Assembly (NCBI RefSeq): GCF_019222765.1
Contig: NZ_CP078145.1
Location: 2,108,001 to 2,172,000 of the forward strand
Source of the DNA: Nocardia iowensis
GTDB taxonomy: Bacteria > Actinomycetota > Actinomycetes > Mycobacteriales > Mycobacteriaceae
Reading direction: 5' to 3'
DNA length: 64,000 bases
Positions within the stretch are counted from its first letter, which is position 1. Each line of letters begins with the position of its first letter. The notes beneath the pieces were generated by a model. That model was not told the origin of the DNA and did no database searches. It saw nothing but the letters and a program-made list of their open reading frames with translations. The position numbers and the translations under genes were made by a program. This document shows, piece after piece, positions 6,159-26,586 of the stretch.

Positions 6159-6162
6159 GCCA

Positions 6163-6318
6163 GTGGCCCGGTCCGGATTGCCCATCATCGCGGCCGACCT
6201 GGATCGCCCGTCGTTTCGGGTAGCTGGTCCGCCGAATCGGCCCGGGGTACGGGAACCGTCGGCCGGGACGATTGGTTCGGCGGATTCGATTGCTGTGCAG
6301 GGAGTTCAGGGGCTATGA
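6163..6318 (+). CDS. Possible 51-aa coupled leader ORF between obg and proB
   Basis: GTG 6163 opens 51 codons ending at TGA 6316-6318, which overlaps the proB ATG as ATGA. AGGAG (6151-6155), inside the last codons of obg, is 7 nt before the GTG, so initiation is plausible. The product (starts [18 protein letters not shown]) has no recognised domain. It may be a real small protein or simply a device that feeds ribosomes from obg into proB. Unrecognised; low confidence as a protein. Confidence 0.35.
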
Positions 6319-7451: not shown

Positions 7452-7527
7452 CCGCACCGATACCCGCCGTACGGCTCCAGCGTGACGAGTCCGAGCGGTA
7501 GCCGCACAGCTGCTGATTTGTTGAAGT

Positions 7528-7551
7528 GCGCGCCAACGGAAGTTGGCGCGC
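7528..7551. terminator. Bidirectional terminator between proB and the PPE-like gene
   Basis: A perfect 10-bp stem, GCGCGCCAAC (7528-7537) and GTTGGCGCGC (7542-7551), is capped by a GGAA (GNRA-type) tetraloop. It lies between convergent genes. Confidence 0.85.
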
Positions 7552-7557
7552 TGACAC

Positions 7558-8679: not shown

Positions 8680-9050
8680 CGGGGGAGCCTCGATGCGACG
8701 GCGCGCAGGGCGGCGGCGTTGGCGGCATCGGCCTCGTCGAGTAACCCGCCGCTGATCAGAAACGCCTCTTTCAGGCGGTAGGCAGCCTCGATGTAGTGAT
8801 CCAGCAACGCTGCGGCATCCCGCGCTTTGTGATTGAACCCGGCCTGTAACTGCTGCGCCGAGACGAATCCGCCGAATCCGCCGAGCTCTGCGGCGGTTTC
8901 GAGACGTTGTTGCAGGTAGATCAACCGCTCAGCCTGCCGGTCGTACATCTCGGCGCATCGTCGCGCCGCGGCCGGATCGAATTGGACGGTGCCTGCCTGG
9001 GCCGCTTGCTTGAACCGGACGATATCGGCTCGGCTGGTCTCGATCGTCAT
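8676..9050 (-). CDS. PE-like small helical ESX partner, 124 aa
   Basis: Two predicted helical stretches are separated by a GGFGGF turn (residues about 57-62). Near the end of the second helix is YRLKE, fitting the YxxxD/E export signal of type VII substrates. It has no WxG of its own; the PPE-like neighbour supplies it, as in PE/PPE heterodimers. It overlaps the downstream gene (8679) by ATGA-type coupling. A conserved name for this exact family is not known to me, and the assignment rests on architecture and context. Confidence 0.65.
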   Translation of the reverse strand: MTIETSRADIVRFKQAAQAGTVQFDPAAARRCAEMYDRQAERLIYLQQRLETAAELGGFGGFVSAQQLQAGFNHKARDAAALLDHYIEAAYRLKEAFLISGGLLDEADAANAAALRAVASRLPR

Positions 9051-9142
9051 CGCACACCCCTGAGATGGTCGGTCAGCCTCAGACTAGCCCGAAGTGGAGC
9101 CAACGGGCAGCAGTGGTTATCGGTTGGCATCGAAGAACGGGT

Positions 9143-9859
9143 TCACGCCTGAATGCGTTTCTGTAGTTGCGCGGCGATCTGTTCGGTCGAGGCGGGGGTG
9201 AGGTGAACTTCCGCGCCCGCCCTGATGAGGTAGCGGCCGTCGCCCTTGACGTCGAACCAGGTGTAGTGGACCGGCGGTGCCGGTGTCTGCTGGTCCAGCC
9301 TGGACTCGATCCGGATATGGCCTTCCGCGCTATGCGGTTTCAGCAGCAGCTTGCGGATGCGTGGCGCGGTCGGCTGTTGCGCGACCACGACCTCCTCGTC
9401 GCGGACGGCCGCTGTCGGCGCCACCCTGGCCGGTTCCCGGCCGGGCGGAGTATCGGGCAGCAGACCGGCGATCCGGGCGCCCAGTTTGCCGCTGTGCCCG
9501 ATGGTGAGGCGCACCCGGCCACCGAAATCCGGGGACGAGCCCGGTTCCTGCACGGCGAGTACGGCCCGGTCGTAGATCGCCGCGGCCAGCAACCGGATCT
9601 CGCTGCCCGCGGTGTGCGCGCCGCCGATCGCGACGATCCTGGTGTGTGGTGCCGCCAGGATGCGCAGGCAGGCGCTCAGGTCGGGGTCGGCGCCGAGCGG
9701 TAGCCGTTCGTCGAGGGTGGCGCGCAGCCGATCGGCCTCGTCCTCGGTGCGCGGCGTTTCCAGAATGCGGAGCGGATACGGGTGCCGATCGAGGTCGGTT
9801 TCGCGCCAGACGTGGGCGAACTCGTCCGGACTTAAGGTCCAACTCACCGCCCGAATCAC
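9143..9859 (-). CDS. EspG-family ESX secretion-associated chaperone, 238 aa
   Basis: The N-terminus SWTLSPDEFAHVWRETDLDR followed by PYPLRI is the EspG pattern; EspG proteins bind the tip of cognate PPE proteins in the cytosol. GTG 9859 is used, and GTG 9847 (VSWTLSPDEF) is equally possible. A longer frame back to 10042 would invade the upstream region of the next operon and lacks family resemblance. The C-terminus (VHYTWFDVKGDGRYLIRA) forms the beta-rich end. It is the first gene of the minus-strand trio, 92 bp before the PE-like gene. Confidence 0.75.
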   Translation of the reverse strand: MIRAVSWTLSPDEFAHVWRETDLDRHPYPLRILETPRTEDEADRLRATLDERLPLGADPDLSACLRILAAPHTRIVAIGGAHTAGSEIRLLAAAIYDRAVLAVQEPGSSPDFGGRVRLTIGHSGKLGARIAGLLPDTPPGREPARVAPTAAVRDEEVVVAQQPTAPRIRKLLLKPHSAEGHIRIESRLDQQTPAPPVHYTWFDVKGDGRYLIRAGAEVHLTPASTEQIAAQLQKRIQA

Positions 9860-9897
9860 ATCCTCACCGAACCCACGGAAACTGCTTCGTAGCTTAA

Positions 9898-9922: not shown

Positions 9923-10062
9923 CCGCACCGAGCACCTAGGATTGTGGGCTAACGCTGCGGTGAATTCTCGGATATATCCAAACAACCCCTTTAGTTTGCT
10001 GGCCCACCCGTGCCGGAGCGCTGTGCTCCGGACGACGACCAAGGGGTGAATGGGAGTATGCC

Positions 10063-12762
10063 GTGCAGGTGCTTGGACCGTGGACCGATATCGCGACGAT
10101 CGCCGCCGTTGGCGGCGGTAAAGCGCGCGGCTTGCACAGCCTGGGGCAGTGCGGGTTTCGGGTCCCGGACTGGACCGTGCTCGGCACCGATGTCTTCGCG
10201 CGGTTCACCGCCGAAGACGAGCTCGAGCGGGCAGTGATAGAGGTCACAGGGCTGGACGAGCTCGACGCGGCACTCGGAGCAGGTGCTGAATTGCGCGCCC
10301 GGATTCGCGCGACACCGCTGCCGCAGGAGATTCGCGAGTTGATCGTCGACGCCTACGAGCGGCTCGGCGGCGGACCGATCGCGGTGCGCTCGTCCGTCGT
10401 CGCGGAGGACGGGCCGGAGCACTCGTATGCGGGCCAGTTCGATTCCTTCCTGAACGTCAACGGCGTCGACGCGGTGCTGGACCGGGTGCGCGACTGCTGG
10501 GCGTCGGCATTCTCCGAGCGATCGCTCCGCTATGCCTTCGCGAACAAACAGCCGCGGGCGTCCGCGGTCGCCGTTGTGCTGCAACGCCTGATCGTGGCGC
10601 GGGCCAGCGGCGTCATGTTCACCGCGAATCCGATCAGCGGCGCGCGCGACGAACTGGTGATCAGCGCGGTCTACGGGCTCGGTGAGGGCCTGGTGTCCGG
10701 CGCGGTGGATGCGGACTCGGTGGTGGTCGACAAATCCTCCGGCGTGGTGCTGGAAACCGTGGTGGGCGACAAGGACCGCTCGTATGTGGTCGCGGGCGAT
10801 CAGGGCTGTGCCATCAGCGAAATCGATCCGGCGCGGCGGGAACTGCCCGTGCTGATCGACGCCGAGATCGCCGAGGTGGCCGAACTCGGGCGCAAGGTGG
10901 AGGCGGAATTCGATGCGCCGCAAGACGTGGAGTGGGCCATCGATGACGACGGGCTCTGGTTCCTGCAATCGCGGCCGATCACCACGGCGCTCGGTGTCCG
11001 TCCCGGCGCGCTCATTCGTGGCGCGGGCGAGGTCGTTCCGGATGGCGAACAACGAATCTGGGACAACTCCAACATCATCGAGAGCTTCAACGGCCTCACC
11101 TCGCCGCTGACCTACACCACCGCCGCCGACATCTACGGCCGCGTGTACCACGGCTACGCGAAATCTCTGCGGGTACCCGACGAGCAGGTGCGGCAGACCG
11201 AGCAGTGGACTCCGGTGCTGCTCGGCTACTTTCACGGTCGCGTCTACTACAACCTGCTGCACTGGTACCGGATGGTGGGCATCGCGCCGGGCTACCCGCT
11301 GAATCGCAAGGTGCTCGAGGCCGCGCTCGGCGTGGACGAGCCGCTACCCGACGACGTCGCGAAGACATTGCGCCCGTTCACCTTCGACAACCCAGTGCGC
11401 AGGCTGCGGTCACGGTCGGTGACCACGCTGACCTATCTGCGCCGCCTGTTCGGCATCGATGACATCGTCGAACAGTTCATGACCGACTTCTATCGCGTCT
11501 ACGACGAATACGAGGCCATCGACTACACCACGCTGACCGGCGCGCAAGCCTACGCGGCATACCGGAAGGTGGACCGCGACCTGGTCGAGCGCTGGGGCCC
11601 GCTGATGGTGCTCGACGCGATCCTGCTGACCTGCACCGGATTGATGTTCCTGCTGACCAAACTGCTGCTGCCGAAGGCGCCGGAGTGGTTCCTGTACGCG
11701 GTGGTCGGCCCCGGCGCCGATGTCGAATCCGCCGAACCCGCCCGCGCGATGAAGGCACTCGCCGACAAGGTGCGTGCCGACCCCGAACTGACCGCACTGG
11801 TGAATTCGACAGCGCCGGAACAAATCTACCCGGCGCTGGCGGACCGGCCGGACTTCCGCGCCGAGGTCGACGCCTACGTCGATCGTTACGGCTACCGCAG
11901 CCTGGACGAACTCAAGCTGGAAACACCCGACCTGCGCGAAGATCCGGCGAGCCTGTTCGTCATGCTGCGCAGCGCCATGCCGGACGCGCCGCTCGGGCAC
12001 CGTGACGAAGCCGAGGAATATCTCGACGCGCACCTGCACGGATTCCGGCGCCGGATCTATGAACTGCTGCGCGGCAAGGTTTCCCGGTGTGCCGCACACC
12101 GCGAACGGCTGCGGTTCTGCCGGACCAGGGCCTTCGGCATGGTCAAACGGATGATCCGGGTGATGGGTCGCGACCTGGCCGAGCGCGGCGTCATCGACGA
12201 GTTCGCCGATGTCTTCTACCTGACCGTGCAGGAGCTGCGCGGCTGCTACGAAGACGCCGATACCGCCGCGCTGCGCGAGCTCGTCGCGGCGCGAAAGGCA
12301 CAGCGCGCCAAGGACGCCGAGCTGGTGGCTCCGGCCCGGTTCGTCACCACGGGGTCGACGTTCGGCCGCGCCGAACTGGCGAGCCAGGGCTGGGTGCCGA
12401 TCACCGACACCCCGGCCGCCGAGGCGGGGACCGTGCTCGCGGGTACGCCGTCGGCGTCCGGGATCGTCGAGGGGGTGGCCGTCGTCGTGGACGAGCCGCG
12501 CGACGTCGCGGGTGGCATCCTGGTGGCTTACCGGACCGATCCCGGCTGGGTGGCCGCGCTGCCCTCCGCGTCGGCCCTGGTCATCGAGCGCGGCAGCCCG
12601 CTCACCCACGTCGCCATCGTGGCGCGGGAACTCGGGGTGCCGACGGTGGTGCAGGTGAAAGACGTGACCAAACGGGTCCGGACCGGTATGCGGATCCGGG
12701 TCGATGGCACCCATGGGACCGTTACCGTGCTGGCCGAAGGAGATGTCCGCGATGGATCATGA
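10063..12762 (+). CDS. PEP-synthase / rifampicin phosphotransferase-like enzyme, 899 aa
   Basis: The architecture matches dikinase-type phosphotransferases. An N-terminal ATP-grasp PEP/pyruvate-binding domain spans about 1-320 (GGGKARGLHSLGQCGFRVPD; IAVRSSVVAEDG; YAGQFDSFLN). A large middle region (about 330-760) has no classic motif. The C-terminal swivelling domain carries the phospho-acceptor His in GSPLTHVAIVARELGVPTVV (His about 849). This order equals rifampicin phosphotransferase, which moves the beta-phosphate of ATP to a substrate via His; the PEP-synthase TIM barrel is absent. Substrate is unknown. As first gene of the eight-gene operon, it more likely phosphorylates a pathway intermediate than a drug. 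Its end overlaps the next gene by 11 nt. Confidence 0.85.
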   Translation: MQVLGPWTDIATIAAVGGGKARGLHSLGQCGFRVPDWTVLGTDVFARFTAEDELERAVIEVTGLDELDAALGAGAELRARIRATPLPQEIRELIVDAYERLGGGPIAVRSSVVAEDGPEHSYAGQFDSFLNVNGVDAVLDRVRDCWASAFSERSLRYAFANKQPRASAVAVVLQRLIVARASGVMFTANPISGARDELVISAVYGLGEGLVSGAVDADSVVVDKSSGVVLETVVGDKDRSYVVAGDQGCAISEIDPARRELPVLIDAEIAEVAELGRKVEAEFDAPQDVEWAIDDDGLWFLQSRPITTALGVRPGALIRGAGEVVPDGEQRIWDNSNIIESFNGLTSPLTYTTAADIYGRVYHGYAKSLRVPDEQVRQTEQWTPVLLGYFHGRVYYNLLHWYRMVGIAPGYPLNRKVLEAALGVDEPLPDDVAKTLRPFTFDNPVRRLRSRSVTTLTYLRRLFGIDDIVEQFMTDFYRVYDEYEAIDYTTLTGAQAYAAYRKVDRDLVERWGPLMVLDAILLTCTGLMFLLTKLLLPKAPEWFLYAVVGPGADVESAEPARAMKALADKVRADPELTALVNSTAPEQIYPALADRPDFRAEVDAYVDRYGYRSLDELKLETPDLREDPASLFVMLRSAMPDAPLGHRDEAEEYLDAHLHGFRRRIYELLRGKVSRCAAHRERLRFCRTRAFGMVKRMIRVMGRDLAERGVIDEFADVFYLTVQELRGCYEDADTAALRELVAARKAQRAKDAELVAPARFVTTGSTFGRAELASQGWVPITDTPAAEAGTVLAGTPSASGIVEGVAVVVDEPRDVAGGILVAYRTDPGWVAALPSASALVIERGSPLTHVAIVARELGVPTVVQVKDVTKRVRTGMRIRVDGTHGTVTVLAEGDVRDGS

Positions 12763-15700
12763 CAAAGACGTTGCGGCCGTCCGGGATTGGCTAGCCGGCC
12801 GGGCCGGACAGGCCGGGATCCACTTGGCCGACGAGGCCGACGGCTGGGAGTACCGGAGCTACGCCGAACTGGCCGAGCAGACCTGGTCCATCGCCGCACT
12901 GATGCGGCAGCACGGGATGGGCAGCGGCGACGGCGCCTGCGTCATCATGCCGACCGGCTTCCCCTGCGTCGCCGCGTTCTACGCGGTATGGGCGTGCGGC
13001 GGAGTGTTCACGCCGGTCGCACCGCCGATGTTCGGTGACCTGGACCAGATCATCGCCCACATCGCCGCGATCCTGACCCAGGCGAATCCCCGGCTGGTGG
13101 TCACCTCGACCGAATTCGAGCAGTTGGTGCGGCAGGCGGCGACGGCGGCCGGACGCACCGACGAACCACTGGTGATCGACCCGGCGACGCTGAACCCGTG
13201 CCCGCCCGCCGAGCGAGTATTCGGTGCGCCCGACGAATGCGCGCTGCTGCAATTCACCTCCGGGTCCACCGCCGCCCCGCGCGGCGTGCGGGTGAGCTGG
13301 CACAACCTGGCGAACAACATCGCGATGATCTCCGCGCTGGTCGAGTGGCGCCGCGGCGAGGCGATGGTCTCCTGGCTGCCGCTCTATCACGACATGGGTC
13401 TGGTCGGTGCGTTCCTCACCACCGTCACCAACCAGGGCGATCTGTACCTCATGCGCCCGGACCAGTTCGTCCGCGAACCCGTGCGCTGGCTGCGGGCGAT
13501 GGCGCACGCTCAGCACTCCCCGTCGCCATCGTTCGCGCTCGGCTATGTGGCGCACCGGGTTTCGCCCGAGGAGATCGCCGACCTCGACCTGTCCGGTTGG
13601 CGCACGCTCGCCGTCGGATCCGAGCCCGTGGAGGTGGCCGATCTCCAGTCGTTCGCGAAACTCACCGGCCCGCGCGGATTTTCGATGGACGCCTACACGC
13701 TGGCCTACGGGTTGGCGGAGGCGACGCTGATGGTGACCTCCTCGGCGCGGCACCGACCCATCACCGCCTTGCGCCTCGACACCGCGACGCTGCGGTTCGG
13801 CGAACCCGTCACGGTCCTCGAAGAGCAGTTGCTCGATGACACCCACCGCGTCGACGGCGCGGGATGGATCACCGGGCTCGGCTATTCGACTCCGGAATCG
13901 ACCGTCACGGTGGTCGATGAAGAGGGGCGGGTGCTGCCGGACGGCACGCTCGGCGAGATGGTGGTGGTCGGGGACTCGGTGGCGCTTGGCTATTCCGACG
14001 AGTCCGATACCGCGTCTACCCGGATCGTCGACGGCGCGCTGTACTCCGGTGACGCCGGATTCCAGCATCGCGGTGAGGTTTTCGTGCTCGGCCGGATGGG
14101 CTCGAGCCTGAAGGTGCGCGGCCGGTCGGTGTTCATGGAGGACATCGAATCGCGCGTTGCCCAGGAAACCGGGCTCACCAAGGGCAAACTCGCCGCTGTG
14201 GCGATCACCGAACCGGGCGAGCAGGGGATCGCGCTGTTCGCCGAATCCAAGCCGGGCGATTGGATTTCCGAGGCGCGCAAGATTATTCGCAGTGAACTGG
14301 GGCCCGCGCAGACGGTCACCATCGTCACCGGCCCACGCGGCATCATCCGGCGTACCTCCAGCGGTAAGCCACGCAGGCGGCACATGTGGGAGCAGTTCCG
14401 CAGCGGTGCGCTGGCGGATGCGGTCGTCCACGAACCTCCCGGTCTCTCCGGCGAGAGCCCGAATCGAGTCGTTGCCGACGGGCCCGAACCGACACTGGCG
14501 GCCGAACGGGTGCGCCAGCTGCTCGACCGCGCACTGGAAAGCGTGGCGGTGCCCGCGAATTCGACCGTGTTGTTCGAGGGATCGCTGGCCGAGGGATTCG
14601 GCAACGAGGGGTCCGACGTGGACTTCCTCGTGCTCGCGCCCGGCGACGAGGAACTGCCGACGTTGCCGACGGTGCTGTTCATCGACGGCCGCCGGGTGGA
14701 GGTGCGCACCCGCTCCGAGGCGCAGCTGCGACGGCAGCTCGAACAGGTGGCGAACGCCGCGCAGGTGTCGGAGCTGGAGGAAGACCTGCTCAACCGGTGT
14801 CAGCGATTCCTGCGGGCGACGGTGGTCCGCCGCGGCGGACCCGACGTCGATGCCTTGCGTGCGCTGCTGCCGCACAGCACGTTTACGACACTGATCGCCG
14901 ACTGGTGGTTCGCCAGGGCGGTGCATGCGCTGCGGTACGCCGGCGCACTGCGCGCGCTGCGGGCGCGCGACGAAGCGATCGGCTGGGCCCGCGACGGCTT
15001 GCTCCAGGCCATGAAGGGCTGGGCCGCGCGCCGCGGCGAAAGCTATCTGGAGACCAAATGGCTGCCGCAGCAGCTGGATCGGATCGGCGGCGACGAACTC
15101 ATCGATCGCTACCGCGACCTCAGCGATCCCGGCGCATGGGCGGGCGACGATACGACGCGGACCCACGGTGACGCGCTACCGGGTGTGCTCGGCGACGCGC
15201 AGGCGCGGGCACTGTCCGAGCAGGCGACCTGGGCGCAGCTGCTCGAACTCGCCCAGGCGCTTGGGGTCGCGGACGTCGTCGACGATCCCGACCAGCTCCT
15301 GTTCGCCAGGGTGCCCGAGGTGACGACTTGGACGATCGGCAAGCGAGTGCACGTCATCCGTGGTGACAGCGAGGTGTTCGCGCTGTCGGACAGCGGTGCT
15401 CGCGCCTGGCGCTCGGTGGTGTTCCGTCATTCGCTCGCCGCAGTGCTCGCCCGGCAGCCGCATGACATCACCGCCGAACTGGCGGAGTTCCTTCGGCTCG
15501 GCTTCGTCGGATTGCAGTGGCGGCGTGGCGAAGTGCTTACACCCGCGCTCGCCATGTGCAAACCAGTGCGGCCATACACCCCGGTGGCGTCCGCACTGGC
15601 GCCCGCTCTCGGCGTGTCCGGTGCGGCGCGCGAGGAGGCGATCGCGACATTGTCGCCACTGCCCGCCCGCCGTTTCACCGAGTGCGCGCTGAACCTGGTG

Positions 15701-16234
15701 TGGTCGAACATCGTGCTGGAGAACGCCCGCGAGGACCTGGCGGGTGCCGTCAAGGACGGGCAGGGGGCAGTCGCCGATATCGCGGCGCACCGGATGATCG
15801 CCATGGGCGTGCGGGTGGTGTTGTCCGCCTTTGGTATTCACCCGCTACCGGCCGATGTCGCTCCGATAGTGACCTTGCGCCGCATCCTGCCACCGCACGC
15901 CCAGCACCGTGCCGACCTGCTCGCGCGGCTGGAAACCGCTGGGCGGGTGCGGTTCTCGGAGACCAGCGCGACCGGCGGTGACCCGCTGGCAGGTGTCGCG
16001 ATCCTCGACGATTTCGTGACGCTGGTGCGCTCCGTCGCCGCGGACCCGGACGTGACCGGGTTCCCGGCTTCGTTCGACTCACGCGAACAGTGGCGGCGCA
16101 CCCTGGCCATCGGCTACGACTGGCTGCGCGTCGCAGGCTATCTCGACACCGACCTGCCTCTGGACGAGGCCCGAGACCTGCTGGCCTCCGGCGGGCAGCA
16201 ACCACATCTGCGCGACGAAGGGATCCGGTCATGA
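12752..16234 (+). CDS. Fatty acyl-AMP ligase fused to a nucleotidyltransferase domain, 1160 aa
   Basis: ATG 12752 is chosen for CGAAGGAGA 9 nt upstream. Residues 1 to about 560 form an acyl-adenylating enzyme of FAAL type: FTSGSTAAPRGV (ATP loop), SWLPLYHDMGLVG, YGLAEATLMV, and a C-terminal subdomain with RRTSSGKPRRR carrying the catalytic Lys. Residues about 590-700 are a polymerase-beta-like nucleotidyltransferase: FEGSLAEGFGNEGSDVDFLV gives the GS and DxD metal motif, with a third acid likely in RRVEVRT. The remaining ~450 residues are helical and unrecognised. FAALs load fatty acids as AMP esters onto an ACP, and an ACP gene follows immediately. The NTase fusion is unusual; what it nucleotidylates is unknown. 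Confidence 0.85.
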   Translation: MDHDKDVAAVRDWLAGRAGQAGIHLADEADGWEYRSYAELAEQTWSIAALMRQHGMGSGDGACVIMPTGFPCVAAFYAVWACGGVFTPVAPPMFGDLDQIIAHIAAILTQANPRLVVTSTEFEQLVRQAATAAGRTDEPLVIDPATLNPCPPAERVFGAPDECALLQFTSGSTAAPRGVRVSWHNLANNIAMISALVEWRRGEAMVSWLPLYHDMGLVGAFLTTVTNQGDLYLMRPDQFVREPVRWLRAMAHAQHSPSPSFALGYVAHRVSPEEIADLDLSGWRTLAVGSEPVEVADLQSFAKLTGPRGFSMDAYTLAYGLAEATLMVTSSARHRPITALRLDTATLRFGEPVTVLEEQLLDDTHRVDGAGWITGLGYSTPESTVTVVDEEGRVLPDGTLGEMVVVGDSVALGYSDESDTASTRIVDGALYSGDAGFQHRGEVFVLGRMGSSLKVRGRSVFMEDIESRVAQETGLTKGKLAAVAITEPGEQGIALFAESKPGDWISEARKIIRSELGPAQTVTIVTGPRGIIRRTSSGKPRRRHMWEQFRSGALADAVVHEPPGLSGESPNRVVADGPEPTLAAERVRQLLDRALESVAVPANSTVLFEGSLAEGFGNEGSDVDFLVLAPGDEELPTLPTVLFIDGRRVEVRTRSEAQLRRQLEQVANAAQVSELEEDLLNRCQRFLRATVVRRGGPDVDALRALLPHSTFTTLIADWWFARAVHALRYAGALRALRARDEAIGWARDGLLQAMKGWAARRGESYLETKWLPQQLDRIGGDELIDRYRDLSDPGAWAGDDTTRTHGDALPGVLGDAQARALSEQATWAQLLELAQALGVADVVDDPDQLLFARVPEVTTWTIGKRVHVIRGDSEVFALSDSGARAWRSVVFRHSLAAVLARQPHDITAELAEFLRLGFVGLQWRRGEVLTPALAMCKPVRPYTPVASALAPALGVSGAAREEAIATLSPLPARRFTECALNLVWSNIVLENAREDLAGAVKDGQGAVADIAAHRMIAMGVRVVLSAFGIHPLPADVAPIVTLRRILPPHAQHRADLLARLETAGRVRFSETSATGGDPLAGVAILDDFVTLVRSVAADPDVTGFPASFDSREQWRRTLAIGYDWLRVAGYLDTDLPLDEARDLLASGGQQPHLRDEGIRS

Positions 16235-16500
16235 CCGCTGTAACCGACGCCGCCGTGGCCGAGCGGGTGCGCACCCTGGTCAACGCCATGGCGCCGAACC
16301 CGCAGGCAACAACCGACGATGGTCAACGGCTCATCGAGGACCTGGGCTTCGACTCGTTGCGGTTGATGGAGCTCACCGTCGTATTGGAGCGGGCGTTCGA
16401 CCTGCCGCGCTACAAGCCGGAGCAACTCGTCGGTGTGCGACGGGTCGGTGAGGTCATCGGTTTGATTTCGGGTTCCCTAGCCGAGGGAGGCCGGTCATGA
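16231..16500 (+). CDS. Acyl carrier protein, 89 aa
   Basis: A small acidic four-helix carrier with the phosphopantetheine attachment motif GFDSLRLMEL (Ser about 41). It would receive the acyl group from the FAAL domain encoded just upstream and present it to the AfsA-like and reductase proteins. The ATG overlaps the upstream TGA (ATGA), and its own stop overlaps the next start in the same way, so expression is translationally coupled on both sides. Length is normal for a free-standing ACP. Confidence 0.92.
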   Translation: MTAVTDAAVAERVRTLVNAMAPNPQATTDDGQRLIEDLGFDSLRLMELTVVLERAFDLPRYKPEQLVGVRRVGEVIGLISGSLAEGGRS

Positions 16501-17588
16501 GTGGGCGCGACACCGTGTTGGTCACCGGTGCGACAGGGCTGGTCGGCGCGGAAGTGGTGGCCCGCCTGGCCGCCGCCAGCCGACCGGTCGCCGCTGTGCT
16601 GCACAGCAATTCGCGCATCGTTCGCAATGACGGCACCGTCCTTGGTGCGGGCAGTCAGGTCGCCGGTGACATTCGGAGCCCGGGATTCGGGCTGTCCGAG
16701 CGTGATCGCGTTGACCTGTCCGAACGCGTCGGCATGATCGTGCACTGCGCGGCCACCACGGCGTTCGATGCCACGGCGACGGACTACGAAGAACTCAATG
16801 TGCGCGGCACCGCCAACGCCATCGCGCTCGCGCAGGCGTGGGATGTGCCGCTCGTGCACGTCAGCACGGCCTACGTGTGCGGACGGCGCGGCGGCACCAT
16901 CACCGAGGAAGAACTCGAAGCGGGCCAGACCTTCGGAAACGGCTACGAGGAGAGCAAGTTCCGCGCCGAACAGCTGGTGCGCGCGGCCGGGGAACAGGGC
17001 CTGCGCTGGGCTATCGTGCGACCGGGCATTGTGACCGGCGCGACCGGAACCGGCGTGATCCGCGAGTACAAGAACCTCTACACCGTCGTCAAACTGATGG
17101 TCGAGGGCAAGTTGCGGTCGCTGCCCGGACGATACGACGCGACCCTCTCACTGGCGCCGGTCGATCATGTCGCCGACGTGATCGCCGCGGCCGTACTGGA
17201 TTTCGACTCGGCGCATCATCGCACCTTCCACGCGGTCGGCCAGGACACGCTGTCGTTGCGCGAGGTGTCGGATGTCCTCGCCGAATATCCGTCCTTCGAG
17301 GTCGCGACCTTCGTGCCAGCGGCGACCTTCGACATCAACGATCTCGACGCCATCGAGCGGGAGTACTACCTGCGCATCGGCTCGCTCTACACCAGTTACT
17401 TCGAGCGCCGTCTGGTCTTCGGCACGGTGAATGTCGAAGTGCTGCTCGGTAAACCGTCTCCCTCGACCGGCAAGGAGTATCTGCGGGTGCTGCTGGACTA
17501 CTGTCTCGAATCCGGCTATCTCGGCGTGCCGCTGCCGTCGATCGAAGAAGTGCTGGCAGGCAATGACTTCGGCGGGGTGGACCGATGA
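16497..17588 (+). CDS. Thioester-reductase-like extended SDR, 363 aa
   Basis: Extended Rossmann protein with the NAD(P) motif VTGATGLVGAEVVARL near the N-terminus, the Ser of HVSTAYVCG, and YEESK as catalytic Tyr-x3-Lys. These features and WAIVRPGIVTG resemble the reductase domain that releases acyl-thioesters from carrier proteins (NAD-binding-4/male-sterility type). In context it may reduce an ACP-bound acyl group to an aldehyde or alcohol, or reduce a keto group; sequence does not decide. ATGA overlaps join it to the ACP and to the NDK-like gene. Confidence 0.8.
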   Translation: MSGRDTVLVTGATGLVGAEVVARLAAASRPVAAVLHSNSRIVRNDGTVLGAGSQVAGDIRSPGFGLSERDRVDLSERVGMIVHCAATTAFDATATDYEELNVRGTANAIALAQAWDVPLVHVSTAYVCGRRGGTITEEELEAGQTFGNGYEESKFRAEQLVRAAGEQGLRWAIVRPGIVTGATGTGVIREYKNLYTVVKLMVEGKLRSLPGRYDATLSLAPVDHVADVIAAAVLDFDSAHHRTFHAVGQDTLSLREVSDVLAEYPSFEVATFVPAATFDINDLDAIEREYYLRIGSLYTSYFERRLVFGTVNVEVLLGKPSPSTGKEYLRVLLDYCLESGYLGVPLPSIEEVLAGNDFGGVDR

Positions 17589-18505
17589 CCCCGCCGCTGC
17601 GTGAGCTGCTCGCCGCGCTGACGCCGCAGCCGGAGAAGGTGACGGCCTATGTCGACGACACCTACGTACAGGAGACTGTCGAGCATCTCGACCGCCTCGG
17701 TGTCGACGCCGCGAAGTTCGCCAGGGAGCACTCGCTGCTGCTGCTCAAACCGGATGCCATCGTCGCCAGATCGGTCGAGCCGACGCTGAAATGGCTGGCG
17801 GACAATAACTTCCGGGTCGTGTCCGCCTTCCGGGTCGCGGTCGATCGGCATTTCGCCCGCGCGCTGTGGTATTTCGCCTGGAATATCGCCTCGCCCGAAC
17901 GTAGGCGGCTGGCCGACCTGCTGGTGGGCATCTCGGACGTGTTGGTGCTTGTGGTCCGCGGGGTAGACGCGGAACTGCCGGTCCCGGTGCGGCTCACCGA
18001 GGCCAAGGGCGCGACCGACCCGCGCAAACGCAAGCCCGGCGAGCTGCGCTACCTGCTCGGCCGCCACAACTATCTGCTGAATCTGGTGCATTCGCCCGAC
18101 GATCCCGCCGATGTGCTGCGGGAGCTCGCCATCCATCTGGACGAGCGAAGCCGGGCGACGGTGGTCGCACAGGCGGGCACGGGCGACGATCGCTCCGCCG
18201 ACGCCCTGGTGATCGCGGACGACCTTTACGCGCAGGCACCCGCTCGCAGCTTCGACCGCGCCACCGCGGTCGAAACGATCCTGCGCGACCTCGAGCGGAC
18301 CGGTTCGACGGCCCCACCCGGTTTCGACCCGCAGGACGACGCGGAGTGCGCGCGCCTGCTGTATTCCGCGTGGGCCGACGGCCGGGAACTCGATCCCTGG
18401 TCGGTCATCGTGCTCGGGTCCTATGTACTCCCGATGCGGGTCGGCACGCAGCCGCAAACGCTGCGACCGGTAACCGCGCAAGACTGGCTGGAGGAACGAC
18501 CGTGA
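17585..18505 (+). CDS. Divergent nucleoside-diphosphate-kinase-like protein, 306 aa
   Basis: Residues about 48-185 follow the NDK fold. LLLLKPDAIV retains the nucleotide-binding Lys (Lys55), and LLNLVHSPDDPADVLREL matches [16 protein letters not shown] of the authentic NDK at the left window edge, keeping the phospho-His (His169). The protein is twice the usual NDK length. It has an N-terminal extension, an insertion around TEAKGATDPRKRKPGE, and a unique C-terminal ~120 residues. It may act as a phosphotransferase on a non-nucleotide or nucleotide-activated intermediate; that is inference. Coupled by ATGA upstream and GTGA downstream. Confidence 0.75.
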   Translation: MTPPLRELLAALTPQPEKVTAYVDDTYVQETVEHLDRLGVDAAKFAREHSLLLLKPDAIVARSVEPTLKWLADNNFRVVSAFRVAVDRHFARALWYFAWNIASPERRRLADLLVGISDVLVLVVRGVDAELPVPVRLTEAKGATDPRKRKPGELRYLLGRHNYLLNLVHSPDDPADVLRELAIHLDERSRATVVAQAGTGDDRSADALVIADDLYAQAPARSFDRATAVETILRDLERTGSTAPPGFDPQDDAECARLLYSAWADGRELDPWSVIVLGSYVLPMRVGTQPQTLRPVTAQDWLEERP

Positions 18506-19494
18506 CGGCGAACGTGGAAACGGTAAAGACAGCAACCCATCTCCGCACCATCTCGCGCGCGCTGGCGCACCGGTGCGCGGTGTCCGAGGTGTTCGTCACC
18601 TCGCTGGACACGGTGGCCGAGAACGAGTTCGTGGTCGGCGCCCAATTACCGAGAATGCACGCCTATTACGGCGATCACACCGGCTCGCTCGCCCTGCGCC
18701 ACGATCCGCTGCTGGTGATGGAGGCCGCCAGGCAGGCCGCGATCGCGCTGAGCCACGAGTTCTACGGGGTGCCCGCCGATATGGCGTTCATCGTGCGCAC
18801 CTTCAACGGCACCGGCGCGGATACGCCCGCGTGGGAAGTCGGCACCGCGCCCGCCGATCTCGTGATGCGGGTGCGGGTACCGCGGCGGCACGTGCGCGGC
18901 GAGACGGTGCACGGGCTGGACATGGTGCTGGAAATCGACTGCGGCAACGAGTCGATGATGACCGTGGACGGTTCGTTCTCGTGGATGACCCAGCGACAGT
19001 GGTCCGCACTGCGCGGCGCCTTCCGGAAAAGCCTTGGGCTCGGGCCGTATCGGGGTGCGTCGGCGCTCTCCGACCGCGCCGCCTCGGTCGACGTCGGGCG
19101 GGAGAACTGGCGCAATGTCGTGATCGCGCCGCCGCAACTGTCCGGGACCACCGCTCGCGCGCTGCTCGTCCCCGATCTCGGCCACCCGTTCCTGTTCGAT
19201 CATCAGCTCGACCACGTGCCGGGCAGCCTGCTGATCGAGGCGTGCAGGCAGACCGCGTTGGCCATGGTGCTGCACCGCGCACCCCGATTGGAGTGCGTCG
19301 GAAGCGCTTTCGAGCGCTTCGTGGAGTTGGACCGTCCGGCGGAATGCGTTGCCGAGATCACCGGCCAGCAGGCCGACCGTACCGTGATCCACTGTGAGAT
19401 CCGGCAGGCCGACGCGGTAGCGGCCGAGATCGATCTCGAATTCGCCGACGACGAACTGGGTTTCGGCGCCGAAGGAACGGAGGCGGGCCGTTGA
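18502..19494 (+). CDS. AfsA-family double-hotdog protein, 330 aa
   Basis: GTG 18502 overlaps the upstream TGA. Two hotdog repeats are visible: LPRMHAYYGDHTG with DPLLVMEAARQAAIALSHEF in the first half, and HPFLFDHQLDHVPGSLLIEA with CRQTALAMV in the second. This is the A-factor biosynthesis (AfsA/ScbA) pattern; AfsA condenses a beta-ketoacyl chain with dihydroxyacetone phosphate in gamma-butyrolactone synthesis. Here a dedicated FAAL-ACP module could supply the acyl thioester. No ArpA-type receptor is adjacent, so the product may be a metabolite rather than a hormone. Confidence 0.85.
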   Translation: MTANVETVKTATHLRTISRALAHRCAVSEVFVTSLDTVAENEFVVGAQLPRMHAYYGDHTGSLALRHDPLLVMEAARQAAIALSHEFYGVPADMAFIVRTFNGTGADTPAWEVGTAPADLVMRVRVPRRHVRGETVHGLDMVLEIDCGNESMMTVDGSFSWMTQRQWSALRGAFRKSLGLGPYRGASALSDRAASVDVGRENWRNVVIAPPQLSGTTARALLVPDLGHPFLFDHQLDHVPGSLLIEACRQTALAMVLHRAPRLECVGSAFERFVELDRPAECVAEITGQQADRTVIHCEIRQADAVAAEIDLEFADDELGFGAEGTEAGR

Positions 19495-20102
19495 GCGGCA
19501 CCGAACTGCTCACCACCACCCGATCGATCCGCCGTCGCCTCGACCTGTCGCGTCCGGTCGAGCGGCGGGATCTGCTGGAGTGCCTGGATATCGCGGTGCA
19601 GGCGCCCAGCGGCAGTAATCGGCAGCCGTGGCGATTCCTGATTGTGCAGGACGGCGATACCAAGGAACGGATCGCGGGCTACTACCGGAAAGGGTTCGCT
19701 GCCAATCTTTCCGGCCGCACGCCGCGACCCGACCAGCTCGGGGACCTCGCCTCCGGGCAGTATCTCGCCGAACACTTGGCCGAGGTACCCGCGCTGGTGG
19801 TCGTCTGCTCGCTGGGCCGACTGCCGGAGCCCGCGTCGGCGCTGCGGCTGGCGAGCTTCTACGGTTCGGTCTATCCGGCCGTATGGAACTTCATGCTCGC
19901 GCTGCGTGCGCGCGGACTCGGGTCGTGCCTGACGACGGCCCACCTGGCCTACGAGCGGGAGATCGCGGAGCTGTTGGGCATCCCGTTCGATGAGGTGACC
20001 CAGGTGGCCATGGTCCCGGTCGCGCATCTGTTGCCCGGAAGCGACGGGCCCGGTCGGCGGGTCCCGGCCGCCGAGGTGACCATGTGGGATCGATGGGTGT
20101 GA
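19491..20102 (+). CDS. Nitroreductase-family flavoprotein, 203 aa
   Basis: FMN-dependent fold with TTRSIRRRLDLSRPV at the N-terminus and AVQAPSGSNRQPWRFLIV, the standard phosphate-binding segment. A C-terminal GLGSCLTTAHLAYERE lies near the isoalloxazine site. The start is TTG 19491 (TTGA overlap with the AfsA-like stop), preceded by GGAGG-like sequence. Such enzymes reduce nitro groups, enones or quinones, or cut flavin. Here a double-bond reduction is plausible by analogy with butenolide reduction in butyrolactone pathways, but this is inference. Confidence 0.8.
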   Translation: MSGTELLTTTRSIRRRLDLSRPVERRDLLECLDIAVQAPSGSNRQPWRFLIVQDGDTKERIAGYYRKGFAANLSGRTPRPDQLGDLASGQYLAEHLAEVPALVVVCSLGRLPEPASALRLASFYGSVYPAVWNFMLALRARGLGSCLTTAHLAYEREIAELLGIPFDEVTQVAMVPVAHLLPGSDGPGRRVPAAEVTMWDRWV

Positions 20103-21013
20103 CCCGGCCGCTGGTGTCCGCCACGCGGATCGCCCGGTTCACCGCGGTGATGTACAAGCCGCACTACCTGCTGTACGGCGTGCTGTGGGTGCTCGCGTTG
20201 GAGGGCACGGCTTCGCTTGTGACGCAGCCGGATTCGCCGTGGCGTCCGACCTTGGCCACTGTGGTCCGGATCGCGGTGGTCGCGTTCGTCCTGCTGTACC
20301 TGCGGATGGTCGATGAGCAGAAGGATTTGGAATACGACCGGGTGCATAATCCGGACCGTCCGCTGGTGACCGGTGCGGTGAGCGCCGTCGAGCTGCGTGT
20401 CGCCATGGGTCTCATCGCGATCGGCGCCGTCGCGGGCAGTCTCGCGCTGTCCGTGGGTTCGGCCGTAATGATCACTGTCGCAATGGCTTACGGGCTGGCG
20501 CTATGGGGGTTCGAGCGGCTGTTCGCCACCGTGCGGACCAACATTCTGGTGAATCTGGTCGTCACCTATCCGGTGCAGCTGCTCGTCACCGGTTACGTCG
20601 TGGTGTCGGCGATCGACACCGGCGAGGTGCGTGCGCACTGGCAGGCAGCGGCGGTCGCCGTTATCTTCGCCGGTGCATTCCTTCAGTTCGAGTTCGCCAG
20701 GAAGACTTCCCGCGAACGTCGGCCCGATGAGCTGCTGTACTCGAATGCGTTGGGTGCCAAGGGCAGCACCGCGGCGTCTGTGCTGTGCGCGGGTGCCGCC
20801 GTGCTGTGTGCTCTCGTGCTCGTCCGGCCGTGGGAGTATTCGCTGCCGTCGTCGCTCCTCGGCTGGCTCCCCGTGCCGCTGCTGGCGATTCCGGCGTTCG
20901 GCGCGGTGAAGTTCTTGCGCAGTGACCGCGTCGACTATCCGGTGCTGCCCGCGGTGGTCTTCATCCTCACCCTCTATCTCGCGCTGATCGGCCAGGCCCT
21001 GGCCCTGCCGTAG
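20093..21013 (+). CDS. UbiA-family membrane prenyltransferase, 306 aa
   Basis: A polytopic membrane protein with about seven to eight hydrophobic segments. The first Asp-rich motif is in RMVDEQKDLEYDR followed by HNPDRPLVTGAV, the UbiA signature that binds prenyl diphosphate through Mg. A second Asp-bearing loop is probable near FEFARKTSRERRPDE, and DRVDYPVLP lies close to the last helix. It transfers a polyprenyl chain to a small acceptor. The start may be GTG 20084, ATG 20093 or GTG 20099; all overlap the nitroreductase end, so coupling is kept. Last gene of the operon; its presence suggests a lipid-anchored product. Confidence 0.87.
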   Translation: MGVTRPLVSATRIARFTAVMYKPHYLLYGVLWVLALEGTASLVTQPDSPWRPTLATVVRIAVVAFVLLYLRMVDEQKDLEYDRVHNPDRPLVTGAVSAVELRVAMGLIAIGAVAGSLALSVGSAVMITVAMAYGLALWGFERLFATVRTNILVNLVVTYPVQLLVTGYVVVSAIDTGEVRAHWQAAAVAVIFAGAFLQFEFARKTSRERRPDELLYSNALGAKGSTAASVLCAGAAVLCALVLVRPWEYSLPSSLLGWLPVPLLAIPAFGAVKFLRSDRVDYPVLPAVVFILTLYLALIGQALALP

Positions 21014-23834: not shown

Positions 23835-24032
23835 TCAGAAGCGCCAGCGGGTCGCACCGCCGGGTTCCACTGTGCCGAGCGCCATCGCGATGTTCGGGGT
23901 GATGCGGTAGACGTGCCACGGTGGGGGGCCCGCGGACTGGGCGCTGTACTCGGCGGTGAGTGCCTCGCCGGTGTCATCGACCGCGGCGGGCCAGCCGCCT
24001 GACGAGATGGCCGCACCGAATTCATCTGGCAT
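23835..24032 (-). pseudogene. Truncated pyridoxamine-phosphate-oxidase-like fragment, 65 aa
   Basis: The C-terminal part, WHVYRITPNIAMALGTVEPG and ATRWRF, resembles the end of PNPOx/F420-type split-barrel oxidases, which normally span 130-170 residues. The N-terminal barrel is missing. The ATG (24032) overlaps the stop of the upstream glycosyltransferase-P450 gene by 11 nt, so the fragment may still be translated by coupling. It is either a decayed remnant left by a deletion or a very short active protein; the former seems likelier. Confidence 0.5.
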
Positions 24033-26586
24033 GCAGGACCACCGGAAGCCGGGACGGGGAAGCGACGAAATCGCGGTTCGACGGCTTCACCTGATAGTCA
24101 GGATCGGCGACCGGCCGCCAGCGGGCGAACAGGGCCGCGGTGGCGAGGGTGATGGTCATCAGCGCGAAGTTGTTGCCCGGACAGTGCCGGATGCCGACCC
24201 CGAACGGCAAAATGGCTTTCTTGTCGATCTCCTCGACTCGGCCGGGGAACCAGCGATCGGGATCGAAGGATTCCGGGTTGGGGTAGTAGTGCGGATTGTG
24301 GTGAATCATGTACGGACTGAAAACGACCATGGCGCCGTCGGGCAGCGTGGTGCCGCCCAAGGTCACCGGGCCGTCGGCGGTGTGCGTGCTGACCCACGGC
24401 CCCCAGAAACGCAGTGTTTCCAGCACGACCAGTCGCAGATACGGCAGCCGCGCGACATGGTCGGGCGTGACCGGTGCAGCCCCGACGAAATCGGCCAGCT
24501 CCCGGTGTAATTCGTCGGCGATATCCGGATTGCGCATGATCTCGTGCCATACCCAGCCGAGGATGGACGCGGTCGAGCCGACTCCGGCGGCCAGCATCAG
24601 CAGCAGCTCATCGATGATCTCCTCATCGGAGAGGCGGGTGCCGGTCTCCGGGTCGCTGTGCTGGACCAGCGCGGAGAGCACATCGTGGAAATCCCGGTCG
24701 GCACGGCGATATTCGGCCACCACGGCCCCGATCTCGGCCCGCAGCCGACGGGACTTGGTGGTGAACCGCCGATTGGCGATCAACCGCAGGCGGCGCACCG
24801 GCGGCGGCAGCGCGGCGCGCTGGATCACCTGGCCGAGTAGCCACGGGATGTTCTGCTGGACTTCACGTTTCGCGTCCGCGCCGAAGTCGGCGGTGAACAA
24901 GGTCGAGGAGATGGTGTCGAGGACGAGCCGGTGTGCCTCGTCCACCAGGTTCAACTGCTGGCCCGGGCGTAGCGAATTCGACCACGCGTTCGCGAGATCG
25001 GCGGCCACCACGGCGTATTCGTTCAACCGGCGCTGGCGCAGCGCGGGCGCGATCATTCGGCGGCGCAGCTCGTGCGGTTTGCCGCTGAGCACGTTGGACG
25101 CGCCGCGAATGACCTCCTGGATGGCGTCGCGCAACTCCTCGCGATGGAATTCGCCTGCCTCGCCGAAGCTCACCTCGCGGATGAGCTCCGGTGTGGTGAG
25201 TACGTAGGCCGGTCGCGGCCCGAGATAGATCCGGACGATCGGGCCGACCTCGGCCAGCGACGTCACGAACTTCAGGCCGTCACGCAGCGCCACCACGCTG
25301 TGGCCGAGCAGGGGCAGGCGTCCGGGAGCGGTGGGGACATTCGGAACAGGATGCGGCATAGCGGGTTCGGCACCTCCGACCAAGTCGGTGTAGATCGAGA
25401 GGATCGCTTCGGTGAGGCGTGACTGCCGGGCGGCATCGGCGCGCTCGGTGAGGATCTTGCGCATCGGCGCCAATTGTTCCGGGTCATCGGCGAGTTCGCG
25501 CAACGTCTCGGCGATCGCGGCCACCGAAGGATTCGGCGTACACACGCCACCGCCGTCCGGCACCGTCTCCGCCAGGTCCGGATCGCAGTAGACGACCGGC
25601 AGCCGCATCGCCACCGCCTCCAGCAGTGCCATGCCCTGGGTATCGAAACCCGAGGAGGGGAAAAGCAATACATCGTGCGCCGCCATGGCGGCCAGGCAAT
25701 CCGCCTGACTCACCGCGCCGTGCAGCCGTACCCGCTCGCCCAGCCCGGCCGCGTCGATCATCGCCCGTGCCCGGTCCCACAGATCGCCGGTGCCGTAGAC
25801 GTCGAACGTGCAGTTCTCGACCAGCCGCACCGCTTCGATGGCCTCGAGCAGCCGCTTCTCACCGGATAGCCTGGCGCACCAGAGAACTCGCAGCGGGCCG
25901 CTTCGGATCGGGCTGGATTCGGGCGGCGCCGAGGCCTGCGCATTGTCCAGGAGATCGTCGTCGATGCCGTTGGAGATCACCTGCGTCGGCCGGTCCAGCC
26001 CATGCGCCAGAATGCGTTCGGCGAAGTGCCGGGTCGGTACGATCACCCGGTCGGCGGCCTGCGCCTGGGCGACCATGGTGCGCCAGGCGTGCCGGGCCGC
26101 GCGGGACTCGTTGTTGCGCGGCATATGTCCGCGATGGGAGACGAAACGGCCGTGCAGGGCGCGCATGGTGAGCGCGGAGAGGTACGGAACGGGTGAGGTG
26201 TTGGCGATGAAGACGTCGTCGCGGCTGTGCACGGTGTGCACCACGGGGATGCTGTGGCGGCGGGCGGCACGGAGTCCGGCGATGGCGACACCGTAGGTGG
26301 TCTGGGTGTGCACGACGTCGATCGGACCGCGCTCGGCGAAGGCCGCGTCGATCAACCGGGTGTTCGCCGGTGTCGGCAGCACCATGGCGAAACCGTTCAC
26401 CACGACGCCCCCGAGCGCGGAAAGGGCCACCACGTTCGGGTCCGGTTCGGTAGATTCCGGCGTGGGCGCGGTGAACACGGTGACGCGGTGGCCGAGCCGT
26501 TCGAGCCCACGACGCTGGGCATGTACCGAGGTCTGGATCCCGCCGAGGGTGGCGGGATGGAAGTCCGTGAACAGCGCGACGTGCAT
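24022..26586 (-). CDS. Glycosyltransferase family 4 - cytochrome P450 fusion, 854 aa
   Basis: Residues 1 to about 395 are a GT-B glycosyltransferase (GT4): MHVALFTDFHPATLGGIQTS, HTQTTYGVAIAGL, VISNGIDDDLL, LRVLWCARLSGEKRLLEA and the donor-site loop FPSSGFDTQGMALLEAVAM. Residues from about 410 to 854 are a complete P450: I-helix LAAGVGSTAS, ExxR in ETLRFWGPW (about 722), and heme loop PFGVGIRHCPGNNFAL (Cys about 802). The frame is open through the junction. An internal ATG at residue 410 (25359) is preceded at 12 nt by GGAGGT (25377-25372), suggesting two former genes. A sugar-transferring and hydroxylating bifunctional enzyme is inferred; substrate unknown. Confidence 0.88.
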   Translation of the reverse strand: MHVALFTDFHPATLGGIQTSVHAQRRGLERLGHRVTVFTAPTPESTEPDPNVVALSALGGVVVNGFAMVLPTPANTRLIDAAFAERGPIDVVHTQTTYGVAIAGLRAARRHSIPVVHTVHSRDDVFIANTSPVPYLSALTMRALHGRFVSHRGHMPRNNESRAARHAWRTMVAQAQAADRVIVPTRHFAERILAHGLDRPTQVISNGIDDDLLDNAQASAPPESSPIRSGPLRVLWCARLSGEKRLLEAIEAVRLVENCTFDVYGTGDLWDRARAMIDAAGLGERVRLHGAVSQADCLAAMAAHDVLLFPSSGFDTQGMALLEAVAMRLPVVYCDPDLAETVPDGGGVCTPNPSVAAIAETLRELADDPEQLAPMRKILTERADAARQSRLTEAILSIYTDLVGGAEPAMPHPVPNVPTAPGRLPLLGHSVVALRDGLKFVTSLAEVGPIVRIYLGPRPAYVLTTPELIREVSFGEAGEFHREELRDAIQEVIRGASNVLSGKPHELRRRMIAPALRQRRLNEYAVVAADLANAWSNSLRPGQQLNLVDEAHRLVLDTISSTLFTADFGADAKREVQQNIPWLLGQVIQRAALPPPVRRLRLIANRRFTTKSRRLRAEIGAVVAEYRRADRDFHDVLSALVQHSDPETGTRLSDEEIIDELLLMLAAGVGSTASILGWVWHEIMRNPDIADELHRELADFVGAAPVTPDHVARLPYLRLVVLETLRFWGPWVSTHTADGPVTLGGTTLPDGAMVVFSPYMIHHNPHYYPNPESFDPDRWFPGRVEEIDKKAILPFGVGIRHCPGNNFALMTITLATAALFARWRPVADPDYQVKPSNRDFVASPSRLPVVLHAR

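Follow-up and report, generated by a model that had tools for sequence, protein, structure and literature searches.

Cyclophostin, the cyclipostins and the salinipostins are related bicyclic enol phosphates that inhibit serine hydrolases and have been studied against mycobacteria and malaria (from the part consulted of PMC6681047); in the portions of the literature that were searched, we found no description of how their phosphotriester is assembled. A table in PMC7888443, citing Amos 2017, lists the spt cluster of Salinispora tropica under butyrolactone, with salinipostin as product, at RS20900–RS20940 and with a length of 11.1 kb, and the consulted sections of PMC8609351 count spt among nine experimentally characterised clusters and place it in 112 strains of seven species. 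Here we describe an eight-gene operon in a 64,000-nucleotide stretch of the Nocardia iowensis chromosome (NZ_CP078145.1, positions 2,108,001–2,172,000; hereafter the window), which, to judge from gene content, gene order and a tree, very probably belongs to the spt type. We put the probability at roughly 0.72 that it is a Nocardia-type spt operon whose product class is a gamma-butyrolactone joined via phosphate to a fatty chain.

The nucleotidyltransferase (NT) of a second, paralogous operon in the same genome, used as a query, returned proteins of Salinispora, Solwaraspora and Streptomyces. In Salinispora oceanensis, the corresponding locus (L077) comprises nine co-directional genes in 11.1 kb (dikinase start at 5608 to 5683, dikinase end at 8322, AfsA end at 16765). 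Their order is dikinase-type phosphotransferase (DIK), FAAL, NT, acyl carrier protein (ACP), SDR, NDK-like kinase, UbiA, luciferase-like reductase and AfsA – the last being the sole AfsA of that genome. Given locus-tag steps of five, RS20900–RS20940 would fit nine genes. Because gene number, the length of 11.1 kb and the table entry agree, we infer that this locus is spt and that the window holds its Nocardia relative.

The two operons share DIK, FAAL, NT, ACP, SDR, NDK-like, UbiA and AfsA genes, overlapping on one strand within about 11 kb, and the first six (DIK-FAAL-NT-ACP-SDR-NDK-like) stand in equal order, with identities of 49% for DIK, 39% for FAAL, 40% for NT, 38% for ACP, 45% for SDR and 36% for the NDK-like protein. 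The Nocardia operon – known here from genes alone – differs in that FAAL and NT form one frame, AfsA precedes rather than follows UbiA, a nitroreductase stands in for the luciferase-like reductase (the eighth Salinispora gene, not in the window operon), and a fusion of a glycosyltransferase with a cytochrome P450 (GT-P450) co-occurs with it. The window has the AfsA-type synthase, the six-gene order on one strand and the UbiA-fold protein of spt; as it lacks the luciferase-like reductase, we file it as an spt variant, not as spt itself. This reductase is not a feature of the wider spt type, however, since only seven of the 70 core loci introduced below carry it.

In the window, eight open reading frames, all on the plus strand from 10063 to 21013 and none with an internal stop, make up the operon (Table 1). 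All seven junctions overlap, by 11, 4, 4, 4, 4, 4 and 10 nt, the 4-nt overlaps reading, in order, ATGA, ATGA, ATGA, GTGA and TTGA; the 10-nt overlap of nitroreductase and UbiA shrinks to 4 nt with an alternative UbiA start, GTG at 20099. The first-pass annotation of this DNA, made from the sequence alone, had described the same eight overlapping genes, and its domain labels are borne out by Pfam and NCBIfam profile searches with curated cut-offs (for UbiA, which scores below its cut-off, the fold comes from an AlphaFold model). The host genome is a single contig of 8.95 Mb, and the nearest relatives are from Nocardia.

How widely these families travel together, a question raised in the first-pass annotation, was examined by scanning named genomes with an NT alignment, which yielded 126 relatives; the 80 best loci were retained for comparison, and a core locus is one in which DIK, NT, NDK, AfsA and UbiA are all present. 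Seventy of the 80 hold the core, whose genes all share one strand, and in 22 the order is exactly that of the window – a co-occurrence far above chance. The other orders are that of the window minus the nitroreductase (19 loci), DIK-NT-SDR-NDK-AfsA-UbiA-nitroreductase (17), arrangements with a luciferase-like gene (seven, six with FAAL and ACP and one without) and five others. Among the ten non-core loci, two are cut by contig ends (L116, L145), one is on a contig that starts partway through the operon (L118), and the remaining seven are of another kind (L117, L123, L128, L132, L134, L138, L149). The same gene set, or most of it, is found in Salinispora, Paractinoplanes, Kutzneria, Streptomyces, Rhodococcus, Gordonia and Antrihabitans, and the earlier statement that no known pathway combines these families does not hold.

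Within the 70 core loci, FAAL and ACP occur both together (47) or not at all (23), never one alone, a count that excludes a distant, 25%-identical FAAL match upstream in L095; FAAL and NT share one frame in 30 loci and have separate frames in 18, the L095 match being among the latter. SDR is present in all 70. As for the reductases, 43 loci have the nitroreductase, seven the luciferase-like enzyme, 20 neither and none both. In a DIK tree, the Salinispora, Streptomyces, Kutzneria and Nocardia operons fall into one 31-row clade (support 100/100), inside which those of Nocardia, Antrihabitans and Gordonia form a clade of 13; the DIK of the own-genome paralogue sits on a long branch, and its position is unsure.

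Across a genus sample of 148 Nocardia genomes, 82 match the NDK-like gene at E ≤ 0.001, some of them weakly (for instance G060, G089, G096), and 68 carry the operon's UbiA (E ≤ 1e-15). The NDK match occurs without UbiA in 14 genomes, and the loci fetched from seven of these (L055, L062, L064, L065, L071, L073, L074) all retain, of the operon's genes, only DIK and NDK, with both frames still open. Because their DIKs have often lost the swivelling His (gone in six of seven) and the ATP domain (absent in four of seven), these reduced loci look like remnants; their proteins may be pseudoenzymes or in slow decay.

The comparison with partial loci suggests how the operon may be divided. Six genomes have DIK-NT-ACP-SDR loci (four including FAAL); none of the six has the spt UbiA and five have no AfsA, and a thymidylate-kinase-like protein – in reaction class like an NDK that takes a phosphate as its substrate – adjoins DIK or NT in all five loci whose neighbours were scanned. 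We propose, on this pattern of gene content, that the operon has two arms, one that phosphorylates a fatty alkyl and also occurs elsewhere without UbiA, and one that makes the lactone and joins the pieces. The paralogous operon (L027; 7698–16929 of C1:3568001–3588000, at about 3.576–3.585 Mb) has the order DIK-NT-NDK-AfsA-nitroreductase-UbiA-P450, without FAAL, ACP and SDR. All of its first five junctions overlap (one by 17 nt, the rest by 4 nt), and among the matches listed, the closest other NT protein to its own belongs to Nocardia sp. NPDC050175 (42% identity).

Further DIK clusters (L067–L069, L117, L123, L128, L132, L138 and L149) likewise combine DIK and SDR, mostly with FAAL, NT or ACP, and have a nucleotide-kinase-like partner in all six that were scanned (L069, L117, L123, L132, L138, L149), but they have neither AfsA nor UbiA within the fetched stretch and differ in their company, which elsewhere than in L069 includes transporters or an acyl-CoA dehydrogenase. 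In three Nocardia genomes (L067, L068 and L069, from G096, G124 and G069), FAAL, SDR, DIK and NDK-like genes are clustered; L069, the one of the three that was scanned, also has a phosphoenolpyruvate (PEP) mutase, a guanylate-kinase-like protein, a NUDIX protein and transketolase halves, and these clusters possibly encode a phosphonate or nucleotide-like lipid pathway. In a Gordonia metagenome-assembled genome (L138), a nonribosomal peptide synthetase module (condensation, adenylation, carrier; 5172–8234) adjoins a FAAL-NT-ACP-SDR-ABC transporter-DIK locus.

At the protein level, DIK has the Pfam domains PPDK_N (residues 18–308, an ATP-grasp N domain) and, at its C terminus, PEP-utilizers (817–885), the middle part being without a Pfam match; the swivelling His, H849, is kept in all 13 intact DIKs aligned. 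Its best PDB matches, in two stretches, are 5fbs/5hv1, named PEP synthase in the PDB, which we take to be the Listeria rifampin phosphotransferase. DIK also passes the cut-off of NF004881 (1016.9 against 883 bits). In PEP synthases, the His domain is followed by a C-terminal barrel that binds PEP/pyruvate; as only PPDK_N and PEP-utilizers were found among the Pfam matches of DIK, and not the barrel, the name of NF004881 (PEP synthase) is likely a misnomer here. With rifampin phosphotransferase and with PigC/RedH, DIK shares the ATP-grasp N domain, the C-terminal swivelling His and the lack of a detectable barrel, yet it falls far under their NCBIfam cut-offs (350.8 against 999 bits for the rifampin phosphotransferase model NF041857), so that the likeness is one of architecture alone, and its presumed substrate-binding middle matches no Pfam family.

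In the fused second protein, FAAL subfamilies are the top-scoring matches to the AMP-binding half, and the NT half has a weak NTP_transf_2 match (21.9 bits; cut-off 21) together with the GS...DxD motif and fold of aminoglycoside-type nucleotidyltransferases. The attachment residue of ACP, read from the sequence, is Ser42 (DSL), and SDR has NAD_binding_4/thioester reductase matches and a Y150xxxK motif. In the NDK fold, a His is catalytic and a Lys binds the nucleotide; His169 of the NDK-like protein is invariant in 19 of 19 aligned sequences, and in 25 of 25 in a second alignment with overlapping sequences, and Lys55 is kept in 18 of the 19, the loss being in the reduced locus L065. AfsA passes the cut-off of the ScbA/BarX equivalog NF041195 (213.6 against 200 bits), just below which lie the Salinispora AfsA (184.5) and the own-genome paralogue (198.3). 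UbiA scores 30.4 bits against a Pfam cut-off of 34.2. UbiA prenyltransferases have two Asp-rich motifs; like archaeal digeranylgeranylglyceryl phosphate (DGGGP) synthase and other UbiA enzymes, the window protein has the UbiA fold and the first motif, as DExxDxxxD, but, unlike them, EFARK in place of the second.

A pathway may be drawn from these assignments and from the general chemistry of AfsA, its substrate dihydroxyacetone phosphate, the donors of UbiA enzymes and the structure of the salinipostins. FAAL would activate a fatty acid and load it onto ACP, SDR would reduce the acyl thioester to the alcohol, DIK – built like rifampin phosphotransferase – would phosphorylate the fatty alcohol to an alkyl phosphate (ATP giving AMP and Pi), and the NDK-like enzyme would add a second phosphate to give an alkyl diphosphate, with NT probably nucleotidylating an intermediate of this arm. 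In the other arm, AfsA would join dihydroxyacetone phosphate to a beta-ketoacyl thioester by condensation, and the butenolide would be reduced to the lactone phosphate by a flavin reductase – in this operon the nitroreductase. UbiA, cast as the coupling enzyme because its relatives use diphosphate donors, would link the lactone phosphate with the alkyl diphosphate; a cyclic phosphotriester would result from ring closure onto the enol, and GT-P450 would hydroxylate and glycosylate the product. The exact order of the phosphorylations is tentative, and rather more apt to be wrong than right in some detail.

That GT-P450 goes with this system was overlooked in the first-pass annotation. The gene is present in all 68 Nocardia genomes with the operon's UbiA – in 66 either whole or split into two neighbouring pieces, and in G013 and G135, among the matches listed, only from residue 222 or 230 onwards – and, with the best six candidates per genome scored, the fusion was found among the matches listed in none of the 80 UbiA-less genomes (strict Fisher p 2e-40, shared ancestry uncorrected). 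GT-only relatives do exist in UbiA-less genomes, but the nine checked all lack an attached P450. GT-P450 and UbiA are no more than 12 kb apart in 39 genomes, share a contig but are distant in seven and are on different contigs in 22, some of which may merely reflect fragmented assemblies; with 29 of the 68 thus harbouring GT-P450 at a distance from the operon, physical linkage is not enough to account for the match. Gordonia and Tsukamurella have relatives too, and in Gordonia polyisoprenivorans the gene stands directly 3' of UbiA. In Antrihabitans stalactiti, its place is taken by a P450 gene that shares 4 nt with a GT87 glycosyltransferase gene, and in Kutzneria sp. CA-103260, P450 and GT28-type genes with a 4-nt overlap lie immediately upstream of DIK; a P450 and a glycosyltransferase hence recur beside spt-type operons, with differing glycosyltransferase families. 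The GT half itself has weak scores with glycerolipid glycosyltransferases. GT-P450 is likely, on this co-occurrence, a tailoring enzyme of the operon's product. We would go further only with reserve: Nocardia, Gordonia and Tsukamurella might make an unreported class of glycosylated, oxidised salinipostin-like phospho-lactones, with an alkyl diphosphate replacing prenyl diphosphate in UbiA and GT-P450 finishing the molecule, although this specific picture is doubtful.

Several observations weigh against this reading of the operon and its product. AfsA (30%) and UbiA (33–34%) have low identity to their Salinispora counterparts, and the last three genes are ordered differently, with a different reductase; UbiA lacks the second Asp motif, and alkyl diphosphates, being unactivated, make poor electrophiles compared with allylic ones. 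Twenty of the 70 core loci have neither reductase, and SDR cannot depend on the operon's ACP everywhere, as the 23 loci that lack FAAL and ACP still have it. A weak AfsA is present on a different contig in one of the six genomes compared above for want of the spt UbiA, and Plantactinospora and Lentzea DIKs (L117, L123, L128), from genomes without AfsA or UbiA, fall inside the 31-row clade, so that DIK kinship alone does not predict a lactone. Lastly, the link between spt and salinipostin is taken here from the table in PMC7888443, and the part consulted of PMC8609351 gives the spt product as undetected by liquid chromatography–mass spectrometry.

Other readings of the same genes have to be set beside this one. 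The phosphorylating enzymes might serve the lactone side instead, with NT nucleotidylating the lactone phosphate, UbiA exchanging the nucleotide for a fatty alcohol in the manner of a CDP-alcohol phosphotransferase, and DIK and the NDK-like enzyme activating the phosphodiester for ring closure. Phosphorus would already be present on the lactone phosphate, from dihydroxyacetone phosphate; NT resembles nucleotidyltransferases with small-molecule substrates; and 8j8j, a UbiA-fold membrane PRTase whose acceptor is presumably a lipid phosphate, is listed near the UbiA model in the fold comparison. We nonetheless think it unlikely: in the partial loci described above, DIK and NT, and the kinase in those five that were scanned, keep company with SDR and ACP in genomes without the spt UbiA and mostly without AfsA, and thus do not need the lactone. 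A true prenylated glycerolipid, for which UbiA would transfer an isoprenoid from isoprenyl diphosphate to a glycerol-type phosphate as archaeal DGGGP synthase does, is less probable still. That synthase is the nearest solved sequence to UbiA and a joint-best fold match to its model, and the paralogous operon, having no FAAL, ACP or SDR, could use an isoprenyl donor, but the conserved operon genes include no gene for an isoprenoid chain and the operon brings its own acyl-reducing system. The first-pass annotation had suggested a butyrolactone- or glycerolipid-like acyl product, phosphorylated or nucleotidylated and then prenylated; the butyrolactone-like, phosphorylated acyl part comes close to the spt comparison, whereas 'prenylated' is doubtful, a fatty alkyl from the operon's FAAL, ACP and reductase being the likelier chain.

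It is very improbable that the operon makes a plain A-factor-like butyrolactone hormone while the remaining genes serve an unrelated lipid, even though AfsA exceeds the ScbA/BarX cut-off, as in A-factor/ScbA biosynthesis, and the spt operon is said, in 2020 work by Kudo, to yield butyrolactones as well. AfsA lies mid-operon, overlapped on both sides, and SDR accompanies it in every core locus (the co-presence of DIK, NT, NDK, AfsA and UbiA, which defines the core set, is not independent evidence); to our knowledge, phosphotransfer, FAAL-ACP-SDR and UbiA genes are no part of A-factor synthesis. The window's genome, moreover, has no ScbR-type receptor over the cut-off, although the best candidate, at 789527, is close (132.5 against 150 bits). 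Nocardia inohanensis makes the butyrolactone inohanalactone (from the part consulted of PMC11364655), and L040, a locus putatively of this species, holds the full operon, which may speak for the hormone. It is just as improbable that DIK acts as a PigC/RedH-like ligase, activating an SDR-released aldehyde for condensation with a further building block. RedH (360 bits) and PigC (315 bits) are among the better NCBIfam matches of DIK, far below cut-offs of 1350 and 1300, and tambjamine pathways combine FAAL-ACP with a thioester reductase and a PigC-like enzyme; yet DIK scores far higher with NF004881, has 5fbs/5hv1 as its best PDB matches and recurs with phosphate kinases as partners.

Table 1. 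Features of the spt-type locus in the window, with positions counted from its first letter.
Feature	Position	Strand	Length	Basis or remark
DIK, dikinase-type phosphotransferase (spt gene 1 equivalent)	10063..12762	+	899 aa	Pfam PPDK_N and PEP-utilizers
FAAL fused to NT (spt genes 2 and 3 in one protein)	12752..16234	+	1160 aa	AMP-binding and NTP_transf_2
ACP	16231..16500	+	89 aa	PP-binding
SDR, acyl/thioester reductase	16497..17588	+	363 aa	NAD_binding_4
NDK-like kinase with C-terminal extension	17585..18505	+	306 aa	Pfam NDK
AfsA/ScbA-type butyrolactone synthase, two hotdog domains	18502..19494	+	330 aa	Pfam AfsA, NF041195
Nitroreductase-family flavoprotein	19491..20102	+	203 aa	Pfam Nitroreductase
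UbiA-fold membrane transferase	20093..21013	+	306 aa	Pfam UbiA (sub-cut-off), AlphaFold model
GT4 glycosyltransferase–cytochrome P450 fusion, likely tailoring enzyme	24022..26586	-	854 aa	Pfam and co-occurrence
Candidate operator CGGATATATCCA, core palindrome GGATATATCC	9969..9980	+		94 bp before DIK begins

The exact motif of the candidate operator, CGGATATATCCA, occurs once in the window's genome, and seven of the ten Nocardia genomes searched have an exact copy some 95 bp 5' of the operon. Upstream (7558–9892), an EspG-family gene and two neighbours, divergent from the operon, adjoin it in most fetched Nocardia loci, and the EspG gene also adjoins all seven reduced loci with DIK and NDK. 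Between UbiA and GT-P450 (21207–23765) lie two methyltransferase genes and a TetR gene; the first methyltransferase has matches in only some of the closer Nocardia loci.

The first-pass annotation had named prior assignment of the operon to a known product as the finding that would count against it. For the operon family, already known, this is largely the case; the Nocardia product falls outside it, and its operon differs in the FAAL-NT fusion, the exchanged reductase and the co-occurring GT-P450. What is new here is the co-occurrence of GT-P450 with UbiA, the separable arms and the joint presence or absence of FAAL and ACP. The comparison assigns each gene a testable place – alkyl arm, lactone arm, joining enzyme or tailoring enzyme – in a pathway that, with its probable tailoring enzyme, is present in 68 of the 148 sampled Nocardia genomes, including species from infections, and whose tailoring enzyme would escape notice if the operon alone were examined.

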